Source of the DNA: Bacteroidales bacterium
GTDB taxonomy: Bacteria; Bacteroidota; Bacteroidia; Bacteroidales; Bacteroidaceae
Direction of reading: 5' to 3'
Assembly: GCA_012729225.1 (NCBI GenBank)
Contig: JAAYDO010000016.1
Coordinates: 1 to 46,812 of the forward strand
Length of the DNA: 46,812 nt
Shown here: piece by piece, positions 12,231 through 46,812 of the stretch
Layout of the letters: every line of letters starts with the position of its first letter
Position numbering within the stretch: the stretch's first letter is position 1
Translations under genes and position numbers: made by a program
Notes under the pieces: model-generated
Databases searched by the model: none
Told to the model about the DNA's origin: nothing
The model's input: the letters and a program-made list of their open reading frames with translations, nothing else

Positions 12231-12409
12231 TCGTTTGAGATGAATGTGATGAACTTACGTTTGTGTGAAGTCCCTTCTGACGTAATCTTTATGAATTGTC
12301 ACGTTCCGCCATTATCGTTAGGGAGAGTAGATAAAGGCAAGCATTTGGGAGAATGAAATGGCTGGCTTTCCCTGGCATTTGACATCTCGTGTGATTGAAG
12401 CATTCTTCA

Positions 12410-12497
12410 TGTTTCAACGAACAATGCTTCAATGGGCAACGAGCAATGGTTCAAAAGCCAACGAACAATGGTTCGATGCCCCATGAACCATGTGTGC
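12410..12497 (-). repeat. 22-bp tandem repeat array B, four units, inverted
   Basis: Read on the - strand, four 22-bp units occupy 12497-12476, 12475-12454, 12453-12432 and 12431-12410. They share the core GAACCATTGTTCGTTG with array A. The last unit again ends AAACA instead of CAT and is followed by TGAAGAATGCTTC, as in array C. The tail reaches about 12356 and contains GATGT, CAGGGAAAGCC and a weak AAATG/CATTT hairpin (12356-12380). Confidence 0.85.
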
Positions 12498-12920
12498 GTT
12501 TTGCTCTTAAAAACATGATGTTTTCGCTTCTCTATAAATGATTGTGTATAAAGAAGATATGAGGATTCTCAGAAGGTATTGGAAAGTCTTTCGCCATCTT
12601 GGAAGGCTTGCCCCACGACAAAACCTGCCAAAATCTCTTGCCCCTTCTTTTACGGTGAATGAATTCAAGTAAATATAGCCTGGATTTTGGCAATAAAATG
12701 AAAAGAAGGGGTGTGGCTGAAAAGAGATGCAGGTAATCAAGACCAACTTATTTCATCTTGCAAATGAGAGGAACTCATATTGTTCATGATTTTCAGAAGC
12801 GAAACATGTTGGGAGCGTCCATGTGAAAGCACCTCCAGATGCTTTGGCCTTATTCTTTGAAACAAACACCCGCATCCCATCATCCTTGCTCCTGCCGTCT
12901 ATGATGCCTTGGTTGGGTCG

Positions 12921-28273: not shown

Positions 28274-28987
28274 TATGAGTTCTTCAGATATGGGAATCAT
28301 ACGGTTGGTGCGTCGATGATGTGTGCATCTTTTTTTGACCCAGCCTTTTTCCTTCCGTTCCCTCTTCAAAATTCACCGAAAATATAATGGAGATTCACCT
28401 TCAGTGGAGGACTGATGTGGTGAATCTGGCAGAGACTGTTGCAGGGTGATTCCTGCTGGTGAGCAAATGATGATGGGCGAGGTGGCAGAGTTCTTTGTAT
28501 CCTTTTGAAATACAGTGAAATGGTGTTCCTGAAAAAGAGTGTCCTTGTGAGGCTGAAATGAAGTATACGTGCGTTGGTCATCGCACCATTGTTCGTTGGA
28601 GCATGAAGAATGCTTCGATTCTCTGATGTGCCAAATAGCAGGGAAAAGCCTTCTGCTTTCTGTCCTTACCGCATCCGTTTATCTACCATCCCCAATATAG
28701 AATTTCCGTAGAAGAGAAATGAAATTGCCATGTATGCCACACCTCCGTTCGGGAAAAGCATCGCCTTTCAATGAATGTCGTTTGCCTTGAAGGTGCTGTT
28801 TTCAAGATGCTTTCTTGTTCTGAACTCGTGTGGTGAATAGACCGGCACAGTAGATTTCCGACATGAAAACTATTTCTTTGAAACGCCAACTCGTGCCATC
28901 ATCTCTGACAGCACGAGGGATGTGAACAGTGTGTTCAACTAATCTTATTTATTTGCAAAGCTTGTTGCGGAGTTGTGCATTGGCTGA
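28274..28987. other. convergent gap between msrC and the M56-TonB gene
   Basis: 714 bases between two 3' ends. A weak hairpin with a T-run (28313-28334) could end the msrC transcript. An 8-bp inverted pair GATTCACC/GGTGAATC occurs near 28392-28427. The short 22-bp array C lies at 28559-28603, with its tail to about 28665. No gene is supported. Confidence 0.6.
28559..28603 (+). repeat. 22-bp repeat array C, two recognisable units
   Basis: The last unit (28582-28603) has the family core CGCACCATTGTTCGTTGG and ends AGCA, followed by TGAAGAATGCTTC. The unit before it is one base longer and degenerate; earlier units are not recognisable. The tail carries TGATGTGCC (28624-28632) and a hairpin AGCAGGG..CC..CTGCT (28637-28657). 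Confidence 0.75.
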
Positions 28988-39618: not shown

Positions 39619-40149
39619 ATGAGAATTATTAGAGGAAAATATAAGGGACGCCGTTTCCCCGCACCCACAGGATTCAAGGCACGTCCGACAACCGACTTTG
39701 CCAAGGAAGGACTCTTCAATATTCTGGAGAATGTTTATGTAGATTTTGAAGAAGGCCCTCTCGCACTCGACCTCTTTGCAGGCACAGGCTCTATAGGCTT
39801 GGAATTGGCTTCCCGGGGTTGTAGTAAAGTGGTCTCTATCGAGAAGGACTTCAAGCATTGGCAATTTCTCTCACGTGTGCAGAAGGAGCTACAAGCCAAG
39901 GAGTGGTTTCCTCTTAAGGGCGATGTGTTTAAGTATGCCCAGTCCAGCAAAGAACACTTTGATATTATCTTTGCCGATCCTCCTTATGCATTGGAAAACC
40001 TTAAGGATATTCCTGACACCTTCCTCCCTCTTTTGACCGATGGTGGACTTCTGGTCTTGGAGCATGGTCGTGATTATGACTTCTCACAGCATTCCAGATT
40101 TATTGACCACCGAAGTTATGGAAGTGTTCATTTTTCCTTCTTTCGGTAA
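39619..40149 (+). CDS. rsmD: 16S rRNA (guanine966-N2)-methyltransferase
   Basis: 176 residues from the ATG at 39619 (MRIIRGKYKGRRF), the normal RsmD start; an earlier ATG at 39556 adds an unrelated 21 residues. SAM motif ALDLFAGTGSIGLE and catalytic IIFADPPY are present. It methylates G966 of 16S rRNA in the 30S subunit. Last gene of the operon with DUF3822. Confidence 0.93.
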   Translation: MRIIRGKYKGRRFPAPTGFKARPTTDFAKEGLFNILENVYVDFEEGPLALDLFAGTGSIGLELASRGCSKVVSIEKDFKHWQFLSRVQKELQAKEWFPLKGDVFKYAQSSKEHFDIIFADPPYALENLKDIPDTFLPLLTDGGLLVLEHGRDYDFSQHSRFIDHRSYGSVHFSFFR

Positions 40150-40245
40150 AAGTTCTCTACTGAAAACTCATCCTGAACAGGCATACTTGTTGTGCTCATA
40201 ACAAATGCTTTCCTTTTCCCTAAAAAGCACATCGCTCTCTCTTAG

Positions 40246-40333
40246 ACTATATGGTTCGTAAGTGAAAACTATATGGTTTGTGAGTAAATACCATATGGTT
40301 GCTACTCTTCCACCATATAGTTGCCAGTCACGG
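40246..40333 (-). repeat. 22-bp tandem repeat array E, four units, divergent
   Basis: Four exact 22-bp units at 40246, 40268, 40290 and 40312. On the + strand the core is ACYATATGGTT. On the - strand it reads AACCATATAGT, sharing GAACCAT with arrays A-D. Beyond the array on the - strand come GATGTGC (complement of 40227-40233), TTTTTAGGGAAAAGG and a GCTTT/AAAGC hairpin (40207-40228), like the tails of A-D. The array is therefore taken as a divergent member in - orientation. Confidence 0.75.
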
Positions 40334-40464
40334 ACATATATATACCAGTTTTTGTTTTCAAGTCCAGCAATCAATCCCAACTCGTCAAACTCGCATACTT
40401 ATGTGTTTCCGATGATTGATTTGGGCTTAAGAGACAAAGTATCTTCCAAGCAGGAGTAACAATA

Positions 40465-40546: not shown

Positions 40547-43537
40547 TTATCTTCCACGGCCTCCTCCACCGAAGTTGCCTCCAGGGCCACCGCCTCCGAA
40601 GTTGCCTCCACGGCCGCCTCCACCGAAGCCACCCCATCCGCTGCGAGCATTATCAGTGCCATTAGAGTTCTTTCCACCAAAGATGTTGAGTTTGTAAATT
40701 ATGTGGAGCATACCGTAAGAGTAGATTGCGTTGTAGCGACTGTCGCTGCTCTGATAAGCAGAAATTTGACGACTGATGTTGCTTCGGTTCTTCAATATAT
40801 CGTTCCACTGCAAAGAAACTGTGAGCGCATTGCCCTTTAGGAAAGACTTTGCCACCTGAGCGTTCCAAAGGAGTTCGTTGGTGTTCATGCTGGCTGATGA
40901 GTAACCTCTACGACTGCTCTGGCTAATGTCGGTAGAGAAGGAGAGGCCATTGTTGAAGATAAGGTTCATCTCAGCACCATAACCGAAGTTCCATGTTTCC
41001 ATGTTACCGGTCTTCACCACAGAGTTGCGAGAGTTGTTGTAACTTACATTACCGTTCACACCAAAATCAAACCAATCCTTACGGAAGTTAAAGCCGAGAC
41101 TTTCAGACACGCCTGTTGTGTTTGTCTTTGACTTGTCTTCTGTATATTGCTGTGGGTCGAGATAACTGACCTGATGATTGTAGTTGAGGCTTGTGAACGT
41201 GTTCATGGTGAAGTAGTTGTTGGCATCCAAAGAAGTGTTGAAACCACCACCAATGTTGGCACTCCAGTTACCATTGATGTTTTCAGGCTTTGTAATTCTT
41301 ACACCAGTAGTCTCATTGTAACTGGTACGGTTGGCTGTGCTGTTATTAGTCATATTCACACCACCCCAAGCAAAGATACTTCTCTGATGTGCCATCTGGA
41401 AGGTGTTAAAGTTGAAGTTGATGTTGTGACTGAAAGAAGGTTTCAGTCCAGGATTTCCCTTTGTGATGTTCAGAGGGTTGGAATCATCAGTGATATCAAG
41501 CAGATTGGTCATGCTTGGCTGAGAAGTACGTCCTCGGTAGTTCAAACGCAGATTCGTCTGCTGAGTGAAGTTGTAGCGGAAGTCAATATTGGGAGCAAGG
41601 TTGAACACATTACGTGTAATCTCTGGATATTGATTTCCCATGTATTTGTAGTCGAGCACACTTCGCTGTGGCAAGAGGTCAAGACCGAGGTTTAAATTAT
41701 AGTAGTCAGTGATCTTGCGCAAACTAATACTGATGGTATGGTCGTAGTTCTTGTACTGAGAGTACTGGCTCAATTTGTTAGCCTCCTCGTTCTCATCGGC
41801 ACCAATTTTATCGAAGCCTTGAGAAAGCAGGTAGTCCACTGCTCCATCTATATTGTAGCGGTATCTGTCCAGAGAGTTGGACAATTCCGTGTAGGCTGTT
41901 GGATCATAGAGGAATGCCTGACGGTCAGAGCGATTGTAACTATAGTTGTATCTGTAAGAAAATTGCAGATATGTTCTGTTTGCGATTGGTTCAGAATAAG
42001 ATAATTGAGCAGAAAAAGCACTGTTTCGACCTGGAGTGGTGTAATAGCGGTTATTGGTCGTTTCTCCGCCAGTCTGCTTATAGAGAATGTTGGCGGCAGA
42101 GAGTTGCTTGCTTTCCGAACTGCCGAAATTACCTGTCGCACGCAAGGTGATGTTACGTCCGTAGTTGTTCAGTATGCGGTTCACCTGCAATTCACCATTT
42201 ATGCGCTTGTTCTCGCTGTAAGTCTGCTGTTTGCTTACATTTGTGTTTACAATGAGATCCAGAAGACCATCTACAGCCGTAGGGTTATCTATAGCATTGT
42301 TCAATGGATCGTCAGTCAAAGGATTGGGGTCATCATTGAATGTTGCAGATGAATTATTGCTGTAGCCCTTGTTTTTGGTGAAGCTTCCTGATGGACGGAA
42401 GATGATGTTTGTCATTGAGTCTGGTCTCCATTCCATGCGGAAGTTGGCATTCCAATTGTTTGCACCACTTCTGTTTGCGCTGTGGCTATTGCTGAACGAA
42501 CCTCTTTCGGTCACGAAGCTTTTGGTGGAAGACCAGTTCTGTGTATCGTTACCATTATAGTTGTATCTCACGCTTCCACCCGCTTCAAGTTTCTCTGTGT
42601 CCTTCGCAAAGTTGAAGCCAACGTTCTTGGAGTTTCTGAGTCCACCGCCTCCACGGCCTCCCCAGCCTCCACGACCACCGCCACCGCCGAAGCCCATGTC
42701 GCCAGTGTTGTTGGCACCACCTGTCAGCGTGTATTGACTGTTGTCGGTAAAGCGGTTCACCGTTATTCGGTTCGACCAGCGGTCTTCTGTGCCATAGCCT
42801 GCATCAAAGTTGCCAAACCAACCGTTGTTCATGCCTTTCTTCACAGTCAGGTCAAGCACCGTCTCTTCTTCGCCATCGTCAATACCTGTCACGCGAGCGA
42901 AATCACTCTTGCGGTCATAGGTCTTGATTTTGTCAATCATGTTGGTGGGGATGTTCTTCAATGCCATATTGGGATCATCGAGGAAGAATTCCTTGCCTTC
43001 CACAAGAATCTTCTTCATCGTCTTACCATTGATGGTGATATTGCCGTTCTCATCAACCTTGGCGCCAGGGAGTTTCTTTATGAGGTCTTCCAGCACAGAA
43101 CCCTCAGGCACACGATAGGCAGAGGCGTTATACACCAGCGAATCACCTTTCACCTGCACTTGGGCTGCGTTTGCGCTCACGGTCACTTCCTTCATCATCT
43201 TAGAGTCTGGGATGATATACATATAGCCCAACTCCACGTTCTTGTCCTTCTTGTTGGTCAGGTCAAGTTCCAGCACTCTGGTTCGGTAGCCAATGTAAGT
43301 AATCTTCAAGGCATATTTACCTGCCTTTACCTTTTTGATATTAAAACTACCGTCGGTGGTGGTGGCTGCACCAGCCACCATACTGCTGTCGGGAAGCGAC
43401 AAGATTCTTACAGTAGCCGCAATGACAACTTCGTTTGTCTCATCTTCAAGAATAGTGCCCGACACGTTGTAGGTTGATTGGGCGTTTGCACCTATGCTCA
43501 TAAGCATGAGCAACATGGCGAGAAGAGAATGTTTCAT
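40547..43537 (-). CDS. outer-membrane beta-barrel protein with CarboxypepD-like domain and Gly-rich tail
   Basis: 996 residues. A signal peptide (1-20, ending IGANAQ) is followed by a carboxypeptidase-regulatory-like beta sandwich (about 21-105), a plug-like domain with EGSVLEDLIKKLPGAKVDENG, and a large beta-barrel (OMP_b-brl_3 type) from about 240. Such TonB-receptor relatives often lack a SusD partner; none is here. Two glycine-rich inserts stand out: GFGGGGGRGGWGGRGGGG (about residues 275-292) and the C-terminal 45 residues (GGFGGGGRGGNFGGGG repeated, ending GRGR). The tail lies beyond the final strand, YGMLHIIYKLNIFGGK, where such proteins usually end with an aromatic residue. Cargo is unknown. 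Confidence 0.88.
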   Translation of the reverse strand: MKHSLLAMLLMLMSIGANAQSTYNVSGTILEDETNEVVIAATVRILSLPDSSMVAGAATTTDGSFNIKKVKAGKYALKITYIGYRTRVLELDLTNKKDKNVELGYMYIIPDSKMMKEVTVSANAAQVQVKGDSLVYNASAYRVPEGSVLEDLIKKLPGAKVDENGNITINGKTMKKILVEGKEFFLDDPNMALKNIPTNMIDKIKTYDRKSDFARVTGIDDGEEETVLDLTVKKGMNNGWFGNFDAGYGTEDRWSNRITVNRFTDNSQYTLTGGANNTGDMGFGGGGGRGGWGGRGGGGLRNSKNVGFNFAKDTEKLEAGGSVRYNYNGNDTQNWSSTKSFVTERGSFSNSHSANRSGANNWNANFRMEWRPDSMTNIIFRPSGSFTKNKGYSNNSSATFNDDPNPLTDDPLNNAIDNPTAVDGLLDLIVNTNVSKQQTYSENKRINGELQVNRILNNYGRNITLRATGNFGSSESKQLSAANILYKQTGGETTNNRYYTTPGRNSAFSAQLSYSEPIANRTYLQFSYRYNYSYNRSDRQAFLYDPTAYTELSNSLDRYRYNIDGAVDYLLSQGFDKIGADENEEANKLSQYSQYKNYDHTISISLRKITDYYNLNLGLDLLPQRSVLDYKYMGNQYPEITRNVFNLAPNIDFRYNFTQQTNLRLNYRGRTSQPSMTNLLDITDDSNPLNITKGNPGLKPSFSHNINFNFNTFQMAHQRSIFAWGGVNMTNNSTANRTSYNETTGVRITKPENINGNWSANIGGGFNTSLDANNYFTMNTFTSLNYNHQVSYLDPQQYTEDKSKTNTTGVSESLGFNFRKDWFDFGVNGNVSYNNSRNSVVKTGNMETWNFGYGAEMNLIFNNGLSFSTDISQSSRRGYSSASMNTNELLWNAQVAKSFLKGNALTVSLQWNDILKNRSNISRQISAYQSSDSRYNAIYSYGMLHIIYKLNIFGGKNSNGTDNARSGWGGFGGGGRGGNFGGGGPGGNFGGGGRGR

Positions 43538-45357: not shown

Positions 45358-45673
45358 GAGGAGGACGTAGAAAGTATGTTCGGCGCATTCAACTCATTTC
45401 GATAAATTCAGTAGAAAACTGCAATCCATTTCGATTGCTGGCATATATTCTCCATCACACTTCTTCCCTTTCTTTTTTTGCGAAAATAAAAGGTCATTCA
45501 GCGATGATTCAACTTCAGTGGAAAAAGGGTAAGGCGATTTTAGGAGGCTTTTTCGATGGACGGTCTTTTCAGGAGCGTGAATGATGCAATGCTAATGCTC
45601 GATAGCGTTCGTATCCTTTTTATTTACAATTACTTATGCTTCTCTAAAAATTCCACGCTGATGATGGCTCAAA

Positions 45674-45761
45674 CGCACCATTGTTCGTTGGTCATCGCAC
45701 CATTGTGCGTTGGTCATTGAAGCATTGTGCGTTTGCCATCGCACTATTGTTCATTTACGCA
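45674..45761 (+). repeat. 22-bp tandem repeat array D, four units
   Basis: Units start at 45674, 45696, 45718 and 45740, each 22 bp, with core CGCACCATTGTTCGTTGG. The last unit ends CGCA and is followed by TGAAGCATGCC. The tail carries TGACGAGCC (45782-45790) and a perfect 7-bp hairpin AGCATGG/CCATGCT (45794-45812). It is the cleanest copy of the family. Confidence 0.88.
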
Positions 45762-45990
45762 TGAAGCATGCCTCCATCATTTGACGAGCCTATAGCATGG
45801 GGAATCCATGCTGTTTCCTCCTCTTGAGCACCATTCTTCATTTGCTCTCCCTGACAAAAGGAGGAGGACATGTTAATTTTACCAAACCTCTTTTAATGAT
45901 GAAAAATCACCTTATCTGATATTCGCTACCCCCTTTTAAATGCCAAAACACATCTTTTTATTAAATAATTGTTATTTTTTTTAGATTTTA

Positions 45991-46279: not shown

Positions 46280-46696
46280 ATGAAGACAAATATCGTATTA
46301 TTGATAGTTTTTCCTTTATTTCTTCTTAGTTGCTTTCAAAAAGAAAGAAAAGGAATATACTTTGATAAAGTGGAATATATACAAGAGTTCCCTTTCAATT
46401 CAAATCTTACTAATGGGGAAAAATATCCAACCACAGTAATAGGTAAACTTGACTTATGTGTTCAAGATACATTCCTTATCTTCTACACACAAAACTATAA
46501 GGGACTTTGGAGTATAATGTCAATTCGGACAAATAAAGAACTTGGAACTCTTTTTTGCAAGGGGCATGGTCCTTTTGAATTTGTGCAAGGTCCTAACCTC
46601 GATTCATGTCCAACCTTTTTTCACAACAACGACAGTTTATACGCCACTGTATATGATTTTGGTACAGGAAAACTATATTGCATTAATATAACGTGA
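46280..46696 (+). pseudogene. propeller lipoprotein gene cut off by an insertion
   Basis: The 138 codons give a lipoprotein signal (MKTNIVLLIVFPLFLLSCF, lipobox LLSC) and the first propeller blades (YTQNYKGLWSIMSIRT, then FEFVQGPNLDSC). Related lipoproteins run to 350-400 residues, so about two thirds are missing. The stop TGA at 46694-46696 is made at the junction with sequence that reads as the tail of a transposase on the other strand. The gene is AT-rich like the left-edge propeller gene. The truncated product is unlikely to fold. Confidence 0.6.
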
Positions 46697-46812
46697 GTTC
46701 GACGAATTCAGAACAAAGCAATCTGTGTGTCAAATGTCCTTTGTACATTGATGCACGGTTTCTTTGGGAACAGGCAATATGCTGCAATGGCGCCCAGTAA
46801 GTTGACTATGAA
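46695..46812 (-). mobile_element. insertion sequence, end with transposase C-terminus
   Basis: On the - strand 46812-46708 is one open frame of 34 codons ending TGA; the peptide includes NLLGAIAAYCLFPKKPCINV and ends TQIALF. This looks like the end of a DDE transposase with the final helix and a short tail; the family is not decided. The outer end would be near 46695, beginning GTGAGTTCGACGAATTC. The other end lies beyond the window. Confidence 0.55.

Follow-up and report, generated by a model that had tools for sequence, protein, structure and literature searches.

The 22-bp array at positions 45674–45761 of the analyzed DNA is an internal module of a non-autonomous transposon of about 500 bp, a near-certain MITE with IS982-type ends and 7-bp target duplications. 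Similar arrays occur as a class in relatives; in the loci read they are mostly free-standing and consist of about four palindromes with centers 21 bp apart, against 22 bp here. The best reading, which we consider probable, is a binding platform phased at two helical turns for an autoregulated HU-wHTH protein, spread in this genome as MITE cargo. The window, the whole 46,812-nucleotide stretch analyzed, comes from a draft Bacteroidales genome of 2.89 Mb in 213 contigs with 88.8% completeness.

A MITE with IS982-type ends and an internal array

Direct sequence checking and unit scoring place four exact 22-bp units at 45674–45761 on the plus strand, and the polarity, the final unit without its CAT ending and the TGAAG that follows are all as originally predicted. 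Immediately downstream is a tail unit, TGAAGCATGCCTCCATCA (45762–45779, plus strand, from sequence and model match), where the stretch covered by model R1 ends. The original prediction held that the array and its tail were the repeated thing, an idea rejected by the sequence common to the copies. A blastn search of the genome with 45600–45900 gave at least 42 matches (40 candidates scored), and an iterated profile built from 39 aligned stretches around them revealed that the copies share sequence far beyond the array. The shared element measures about 500 bp and holds the array at model positions 284–371; its consensus starts with AACGTGAGTTCGACGAATTT and finishes with GATTTCATCGAACTCACGTT, an inverted repeat. 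The terminal inverted repeats are IS982-type (ACGTGAGTTCGA), and a full transposase would not fit into some 500 bp. The proposal of an element moving as one piece thus stands as to mobility, with the IS982-type MITE as the unit of movement.

A further suggestion had been to search the genome with a model and to look for target-site duplications, and both searches were positive. A sequence-only array model produced 184 matches, some of them two per array, and by our reading well over 100 distinct array places are present among the matches listed. MITE sequence beyond the array adjoins 18 of 20 further arrays (19 weak-scoring, 1 strong), so most arrays in this genome look like MITE cargo. Both ends are present in 18 of 57 copy records, and in these the 7-bp target duplication is perfect twice (TAAAATA and TAAGACA) and matches at six of seven bases in a third copy. 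Over all 18 copies flank agreement averages 3.06 of 7 bases versus 2.05 of 7 for mismatched pairings (permutation p=0.0003); most copies have lost the duplication, which is perfect only in 2/18. Among 40 other genomes of the genus searched, none yielded the element and one had two short inverted-repeat matches.

Within the window, the MITE copy around the array spans 45391–45893 on the plus strand (nhmmer model positions 7–497, ends extrapolated); both of its ends are degenerate, and no target duplication is seen (0/7 flanking bases agree). Profile and unit counts identify a second full-length copy at 12280–12780 on the minus strand with a four-unit array inside 12392–12501, a plus-strand copy at 1699–1915 that lacks the left part and has a four-unit array, and a plus-strand copy at 28275–28698 with a contracted array (28559–28619). 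Of five array copies first reported, the sisters at 1698 and 12410 (minus strand) therefore belong to the same family with four units, the array at 28559 retains one scored unit in place of four, and that at 40246 belongs to another sequence family (ACYATATGGTTCGTGAGTAAAT). This second repeat family, at 40130–40403 on the plus strand (limits approximate), has its own 22-bp array from 40246 with unit ACCATATGGT and one end that is of the MITE's type but degenerate. Counting fragments and the window copy, the genome has 34 matches to this family, which may represent another MITE with an array as cargo. At L145, a distinct 23-bp tandem array of 6.5 copies (891–1040) adjoins a family-2 array, and the window also contains a 27-bp tandem repeat at 40553–40628 within the reading frame of an outer-membrane protein gene (40547–43537).

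The inverted repeat of the family-1 MITE occurs at 78 places with up to two mismatches, versus 2 for the reversed pattern. At several of these sites the contig ends about 105–200 bp away, apparently because assembly halts at near-identical IS copies. In the window, the end of an IS with this repeat (46690–46812, plus strand) interrupts ORF 46280–46696, and the contig stops about 120 bp inside the IS. One IS with this repeat in the window's genome has an initial 45-residue stretch 82% identical to a relative's open frame, and the relatives' IS at L113 and L115 encode IS982 transposases (NF033520, 280.7 and 267.7 bits against a cut-off of 130, with PF13612 matching too); this family test covered L113 and L115. 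Five IS copies with both ends visible, their flanks read by eye, show a 7-bp duplication at L115 and L117, 6 bp at L119 and none at L114 and L118. IS982 target duplications are given in the available text of PMC7335449 as 2–10 bp when present, with 7 bp for IS1187. The MITE thus has inverted repeats in common with an IS982 element and target duplications of the IS982 kind. Loci L102–L106, L065, L069 and L071 also start with the same inverted repeat, and those scanned had no family-1 match; they are probably further MITE families belonging to this IS group. At L076 (2339–2913) two inverted repeats lie about 575 bp apart and both ends of a transposase frame remain, which looks like an internally deleted IS and a possible stage of MITE birth.

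Both a MITE with a minisatellite (BrickBuilt) and an IS982-derived MITE (MITECca01) are known kinds, as seen in parts of PMC4596501 and PMC9769881. The original remark that no described element with such a layout was known accordingly requires qualification: a minisatellite inside a MITE has been described as BrickBuilt in Porphyromonas gingivalis (PMC4596501, in part). BrickBuilt is likewise a Bacteroidales MITE with an internal tandem array, an intergenic location and whole-unit gains and losses. It differs in its GAGACCTTTGCA-type inverted repeats (ISPg1-like) and its range of 1–22.8 units, and it pairs 23-bp units with GAGACC-type repeats where the element here has a 22-bp unit and an ACGTGAG inverted repeat. 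The portions of PMC4596501 consulted name P. gingivalis and P. gulae as the sole species with nucleotide matches to BrickBuilt and describe for it neither a dyad code nor a linked protein. Table 2 of the same source lists P. gingivalis MITE239 (ACGTGAGTTCGA), MITE700 (TCGAACTCACGT) and ISPg3 (ACGTCAGTTCGA), whose inverted repeats are equal or near-equal to those of the MITE here. Unlike our element, MITE239 and MITE700 have no array described in that text, which also files ISPg3 under IS5, whereas our analysis found IS982 transposases in two IS copies with this repeat. MITECca01 of Cardinium, from ISCca4 (IS982), resembles the present element as an IS982-derived Bacteroidota MITE of very high copy number (169); it differs in being about 240 bp long, and the word 'tandem' is absent from the main text of PMC9769881.

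Unit number and conservation of the array

Scoring 51 arrays with a weight-matrix chain gave one unit in 1 array, three in 3, four in 33, five in 13 and six in 1, after a tail pseudo-unit was taken off by hand in 7 copies and 6 of the 57 copy records were left out (a place repeated, opposite-strand self-matches, array-less fragments). The fixed unit number of the original prediction is better described as a strong mode of four (33/51) within a range of 1–6, and the unit steps printed for the window's genome are all 22 bp. Units 1–4 differ from one another in like manner in most copies printed, and these position-specific sequences suggest that the usual number of four descends in part from a four-unit master. 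The predicted tail hairpin is present in the consensus, at 45794–45812 on the plus strand of the window copy, and is not maintained as a structure across copies: RNAalifold found no consensus pairs in 31 copies (the 33 four-unit copies minus 2 too close to a contig end; 26 were used for model R1), and two named tail hairpins showed no covariation beyond shuffles. On these two tests we reject a conserved hairpin RNA in the copies of the window's genome.

The inherited appearance of the units, the MITE anatomy with its target duplications and the BrickBuilt precedent (PMC4596501, in part) would all suit a plain MITE in which the minisatellite is passive filler of the master copy and nothing is bound. 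We regard that explanation as unlikely, and one argument against it is that the array is better conserved than the body and the inverted repeats, with a bias from array-based picking that partly remains. In 36 long copies, nearly all detected via the array and so subject to selection bias, identity to the majority base averages 0.895 for the array and 0.887 for the tail unit, versus 0.73 and 0.70 for the body parts, 0.69 for the tail and 0.77 and 0.71 for the inverted repeats. Eight separate copies from loci chosen on other grounds (L140, L110, L149, L107, L143, L077, L134 and L141) were used in place of the printed array total, which includes opposite-strand self-matches. Measured against a reference consensus built from array-picked copies, the array exceeds the body in 8/8 (0.71–0.92 versus 0.56–0.74). 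The first four, with at least 200 body bases each, score 0.84–0.92 for the array versus 0.69–0.74 for the body; the other four, with 32–86 body bases, are a weaker test in which the array dominates the match and the bias partly remains. Excluded from this comparison were L068, which coincides with a copy already picked through its array, and L076, L146, L066 and L136, where no stretch of array is available for comparison. The array thus seems to outlive its MITE carrier.

Phased dyad arrays and genome-specific cores in relatives

Under stricter filters, the array model found weak matches in two others among 45 genomes of the genus, G043 and G019, at five loci that hold short arrays of four palindromes with a 21-bp pitch. 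No pair of IS982-type inverted repeats was seen within about 1.5 kb at these five loci, where L157 has a lone site with two mismatches; a like architecture without the inverted-repeat pair also argues against the plain MITE. A model of the relatives' arrays matched 9 of 41 genus genomes, the window's genome among them, and their unit is a palindrome, TTCA-n7-TGAA. Three successive TTCA-n7-TGAA-n6 units with up to three mismatches occur in 29 of 301 family genomes and 9 of 30 genera, a count in which some genomes (for example G002, G168 and G310) look like chance or coding repeats and for which a reversed-pattern control matches in some genomes too. The pattern has no match in the window's genome because the pitch there is 22 bp. 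Named genomes, a set that perhaps leaves out the window's own, yielded 0 matches to a single exact pattern in the window's dialect, and viral contigs yielded 0 to a single exact pattern in a relatives' dialect.

Eighty array loci were read from 17 genomes chosen out of the model and pattern match lists. The step between units is 21 bp in 236 of 237 cases, and an unrestricted histogram of dyad distances has 141 counts at 21 bp, 28 at 42 bp and one each at 22 and 56 bp. After trimming of array ends according to edge and dyad criteria, 62 arrays have four units, 15 have three and 3 have five; in one genus three units are the norm (G064, G181, G207, G220 and G258, 10 of 11 loci). Longer inverted flanks with CCCTAGGG-like motifs accompany the mostly three-unit arrays at L281–L284, L273–L276, L297 and L298, all of one genus, in which the element around these arrays may be larger. 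The putative homology of the window genome's array to the 21-bp arrays is based on a weak model match (best E value 3.1e-9) and on like sequence (TTCATTGTCATTGAACAATTG versus TTCATTGGCCATTGAACAATTG). Its dyad is less perfect than that of the relatives: perfect-edge 16-bp dyads in 39 loci of the window's genome form only three close pairs, all 22 bp apart.

Across 309 untrimmed units of the relatives' arrays with an edge score of at least 6, two of the three inner dyad pairs are 90% and 91% complementary versus 58% and 51% expected, and the third is weak, at 50% versus 40%; these inner pairs played no part in unit detection, and expectations come from column composition. The middle linker pair is high (78% versus 48%) and the outer linker pair falls below expectation (42% versus 50%). 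Halves pair at 0.77 within their own array, 0.81 with other arrays of the same genome and 0.46 with other genomes; pairing is no worse between arrays of one genome than inside an array, so the core is a property of the genome and not of the single locus. Half-sites are identical in 0.90 of within-genome array comparisons versus 0.34 between genomes. Several arrays lie at orthologous loci with flanks 74–99% identical, and the cores differ at such loci between G013 and G019, G013 and G043, and G181 and G064. Across four orthologous comparisons, 24 inner pairs differ in both bases with pairing retained, 5 differ in both bases and no longer pair, 10 differ in a single base and 6 are unchanged; the eight orthologous pairs were chosen by us, the four counted have differing cores and do not overlap, two others are repeats and two have the same core with few changes. 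Cores are thus alike within a genome and different between genomes, orthologous loci included, and the retention of dyads through core turnover is a further point against passive filler. At one locus the array of G011 is two units (42 bp) shorter than that of G010. An empty site was considered and rejected at the L236 locus, where G011 is two units shorter and G032 is array-less inside a larger gap, with no clean insertion boundary in view.

Changes on both sides of a dyad could also fit RNA hairpins. Such a REP/BIME-like explanation takes the palindromes as nucleic-acid hairpins, acting as stabilizers of mRNA 3′ ends or as terminators, or as sequences moved by a REP-type Y1 transposase, and we consider it quite unlikely. 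The arrays resemble REP/BIME sequences in being intergenic, multicopy, palindromic and genome-specific in sequence; their predicted folding is strong (mean z −7.07 over 79 arrays) and some begin at gene ends. The partly consulted literature describes REP/BIME as multicopy intergenic palindromes in regular composite arrays with protein binding sites, from which the arrays here differ in their 21-bp pitch and about four units. REP/BIME elements are marked by a GTAG/CGTC tag and a linked Y1 transposase. The exact 21-bp pitch has no obvious RNA reason, and the conservation of array positions between species counts against such an explanation, as do the absence of T-run enrichment and of convergent bias and the Rfam search of 10 array loci, in which a tRNA was the single match.

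By crude ORF calls, 41 of the 80 arrays lie between tandem genes, 13 between convergent and 10 between divergent genes, 10 overlap genes and 6 are at a contig edge, against a background of 40/9/16 tandem/convergent/divergent; the arrays have no orientation bias, and the context hints at no general promoter or terminator use. T5 runs beside arrays are not enriched (4/158, 2.5%, versus 2.1%). From the lack of convergent bias and of T-run enrichment we reject an intrinsic terminator; neither the covarying helix of a structured RNA nor the T-run of a terminator was found, and no Rfam family matches in the window.

An HU-wHTH gene downstream of some arrays

A Pfam scan of 10 neighbors at six conserved loci identified HU-HIG proteins (PF18291) at L256 and L275. 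Neighbors at four of the six are TrpE/TrpB-like, a sugar transporter and DUF5107, FtsW and a Mur ligase, and MsrA and a radical SAM protein. Comparing the L256 and L275 proteins with all 80 loci located an HU-wHTH gene at nine (G013, G043, G032, G264, G213, G064, G220, G008 and G181), each with the array 66–116 bp upstream of the first Met, and six more loci (G016, G242, G095, G197, G113 and G028) have the array 73–152 bp upstream. The array is upstream of the HU-wHTH gene in 15/15 cases, at 66–152 bp overall, in 15 genomes of five genera; the array of G242 is the weakest among them, and the genomes are not independent, with G013/G032/G043 and G064/G220/G181 being orthologous loci and others belonging to the same genus. 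The number of independent cases is therefore below 15; even as one inherited arrangement, it was kept while the array core changed. At L214, L215 and L217 (G095, G197 and G113) the arrays upstream of HU-wHTH genes mix ATCA...TGAT edges with TTCA...TGAA.

HU-HIG proteins are a recognized Pfam family (PF18291), the family of the gene beside these 15 arrays, and are reportedly covered by a 2017 survey by Burroughs and others. We know of no DNA binding site for the family. A literature search, which left most subscription papers outside its reach, found none for HU-HIG proteins, and the available part of a Bacteroides study (PMC11035120) merely names an HU-HIG protein in a table. Eight of eight aligned HU-wHTH members match PF18291 and TIGR01201 at E values up to 0.01, and their profile weakly matches HU and IHF structures (E 0.002–0.009); a single-sequence structure prediction was too weak for use (mean pLDDT 51.1). 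Searching named contigs for the HU-wHTH protein gave a single match, the G013 locus itself. There were 0 matches in 283 kb of the window genome's loci, and the gene is absent from the loci of that genome taken by place (344 kb of 2.89 Mb). It was not seen beside the arrays read in 8 of the 17 genomes (G010, G011, G019, G024, G099, G207, G250 and G258; 1–8 loci each) or at the loci read of G003, G036, G037, G150, G171, G176 and G236. The link between array and HU-wHTH protein is an association.

An upstream position at 66–152 bp, dyad symmetry and genome-specific cores would also suit an ordinary transcription factor with an operator array confined to its regulon, for which the HU-wHTH gene would be just one target and the binder another protein. 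We judge this quite unlikely: 13 of the 64 arrays with both neighbors called are convergent and others extend into gene ends, and the neighbor genes at four of the six conserved loci scanned are unrelated. The two-turn pitch, the dyads, the few units, the genome-wide dialects and the HU-wHTH neighbor together fit the reading we favor, a cooperative, autoregulated platform for HU-wHTH dimers. The original suggestion of a binding platform on one DNA face gains indirect support from the stand-alone arrays of relatives, with their near-constant 21-bp pitch (236/237), the dyads kept through core turnover and the HU-wHTH neighbor. HU-wHTH dimers would bind the array cooperatively along one face of the DNA, with two helical turns per unit, and may use the upstream array to repress or tune expression of their own gene; other intergenic arrays would be architectural or regulatory sites for the same protein. 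In the window's genome, a MITE may have captured such an array and been spread by IS982-family transposases, and binding by the host protein would keep the array intact while the remaining MITE decays.

A broader proposal, which we put forward tentatively and at less than even odds, is a family-wide code in which the HU-wHTH nucleoid protein and arrays of about four dyads at 21 or 22 bp co-evolve as genome dialects, with cores switching together while position, pitch and number stay. The window's transposon would then have adopted the host dialect and spread more than 100 platforms; it may do so in order to be tolerated, or may itself be the target of policing by the protein. In the literature searched, with most subscription papers outside that search, we found no description of phased arrays of dyads that have genome dialects and lie next to an HU-wHTH gene. 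If the arrays are HU-HIG sites, their target, helical phasing and species dialects become directly testable, with 15 genomes supplying array–protein pairs. In that case the arrays would also exemplify a transposon that has a host protein's binding platform as cargo, and a concerted change of DNA sites throughout a genome.
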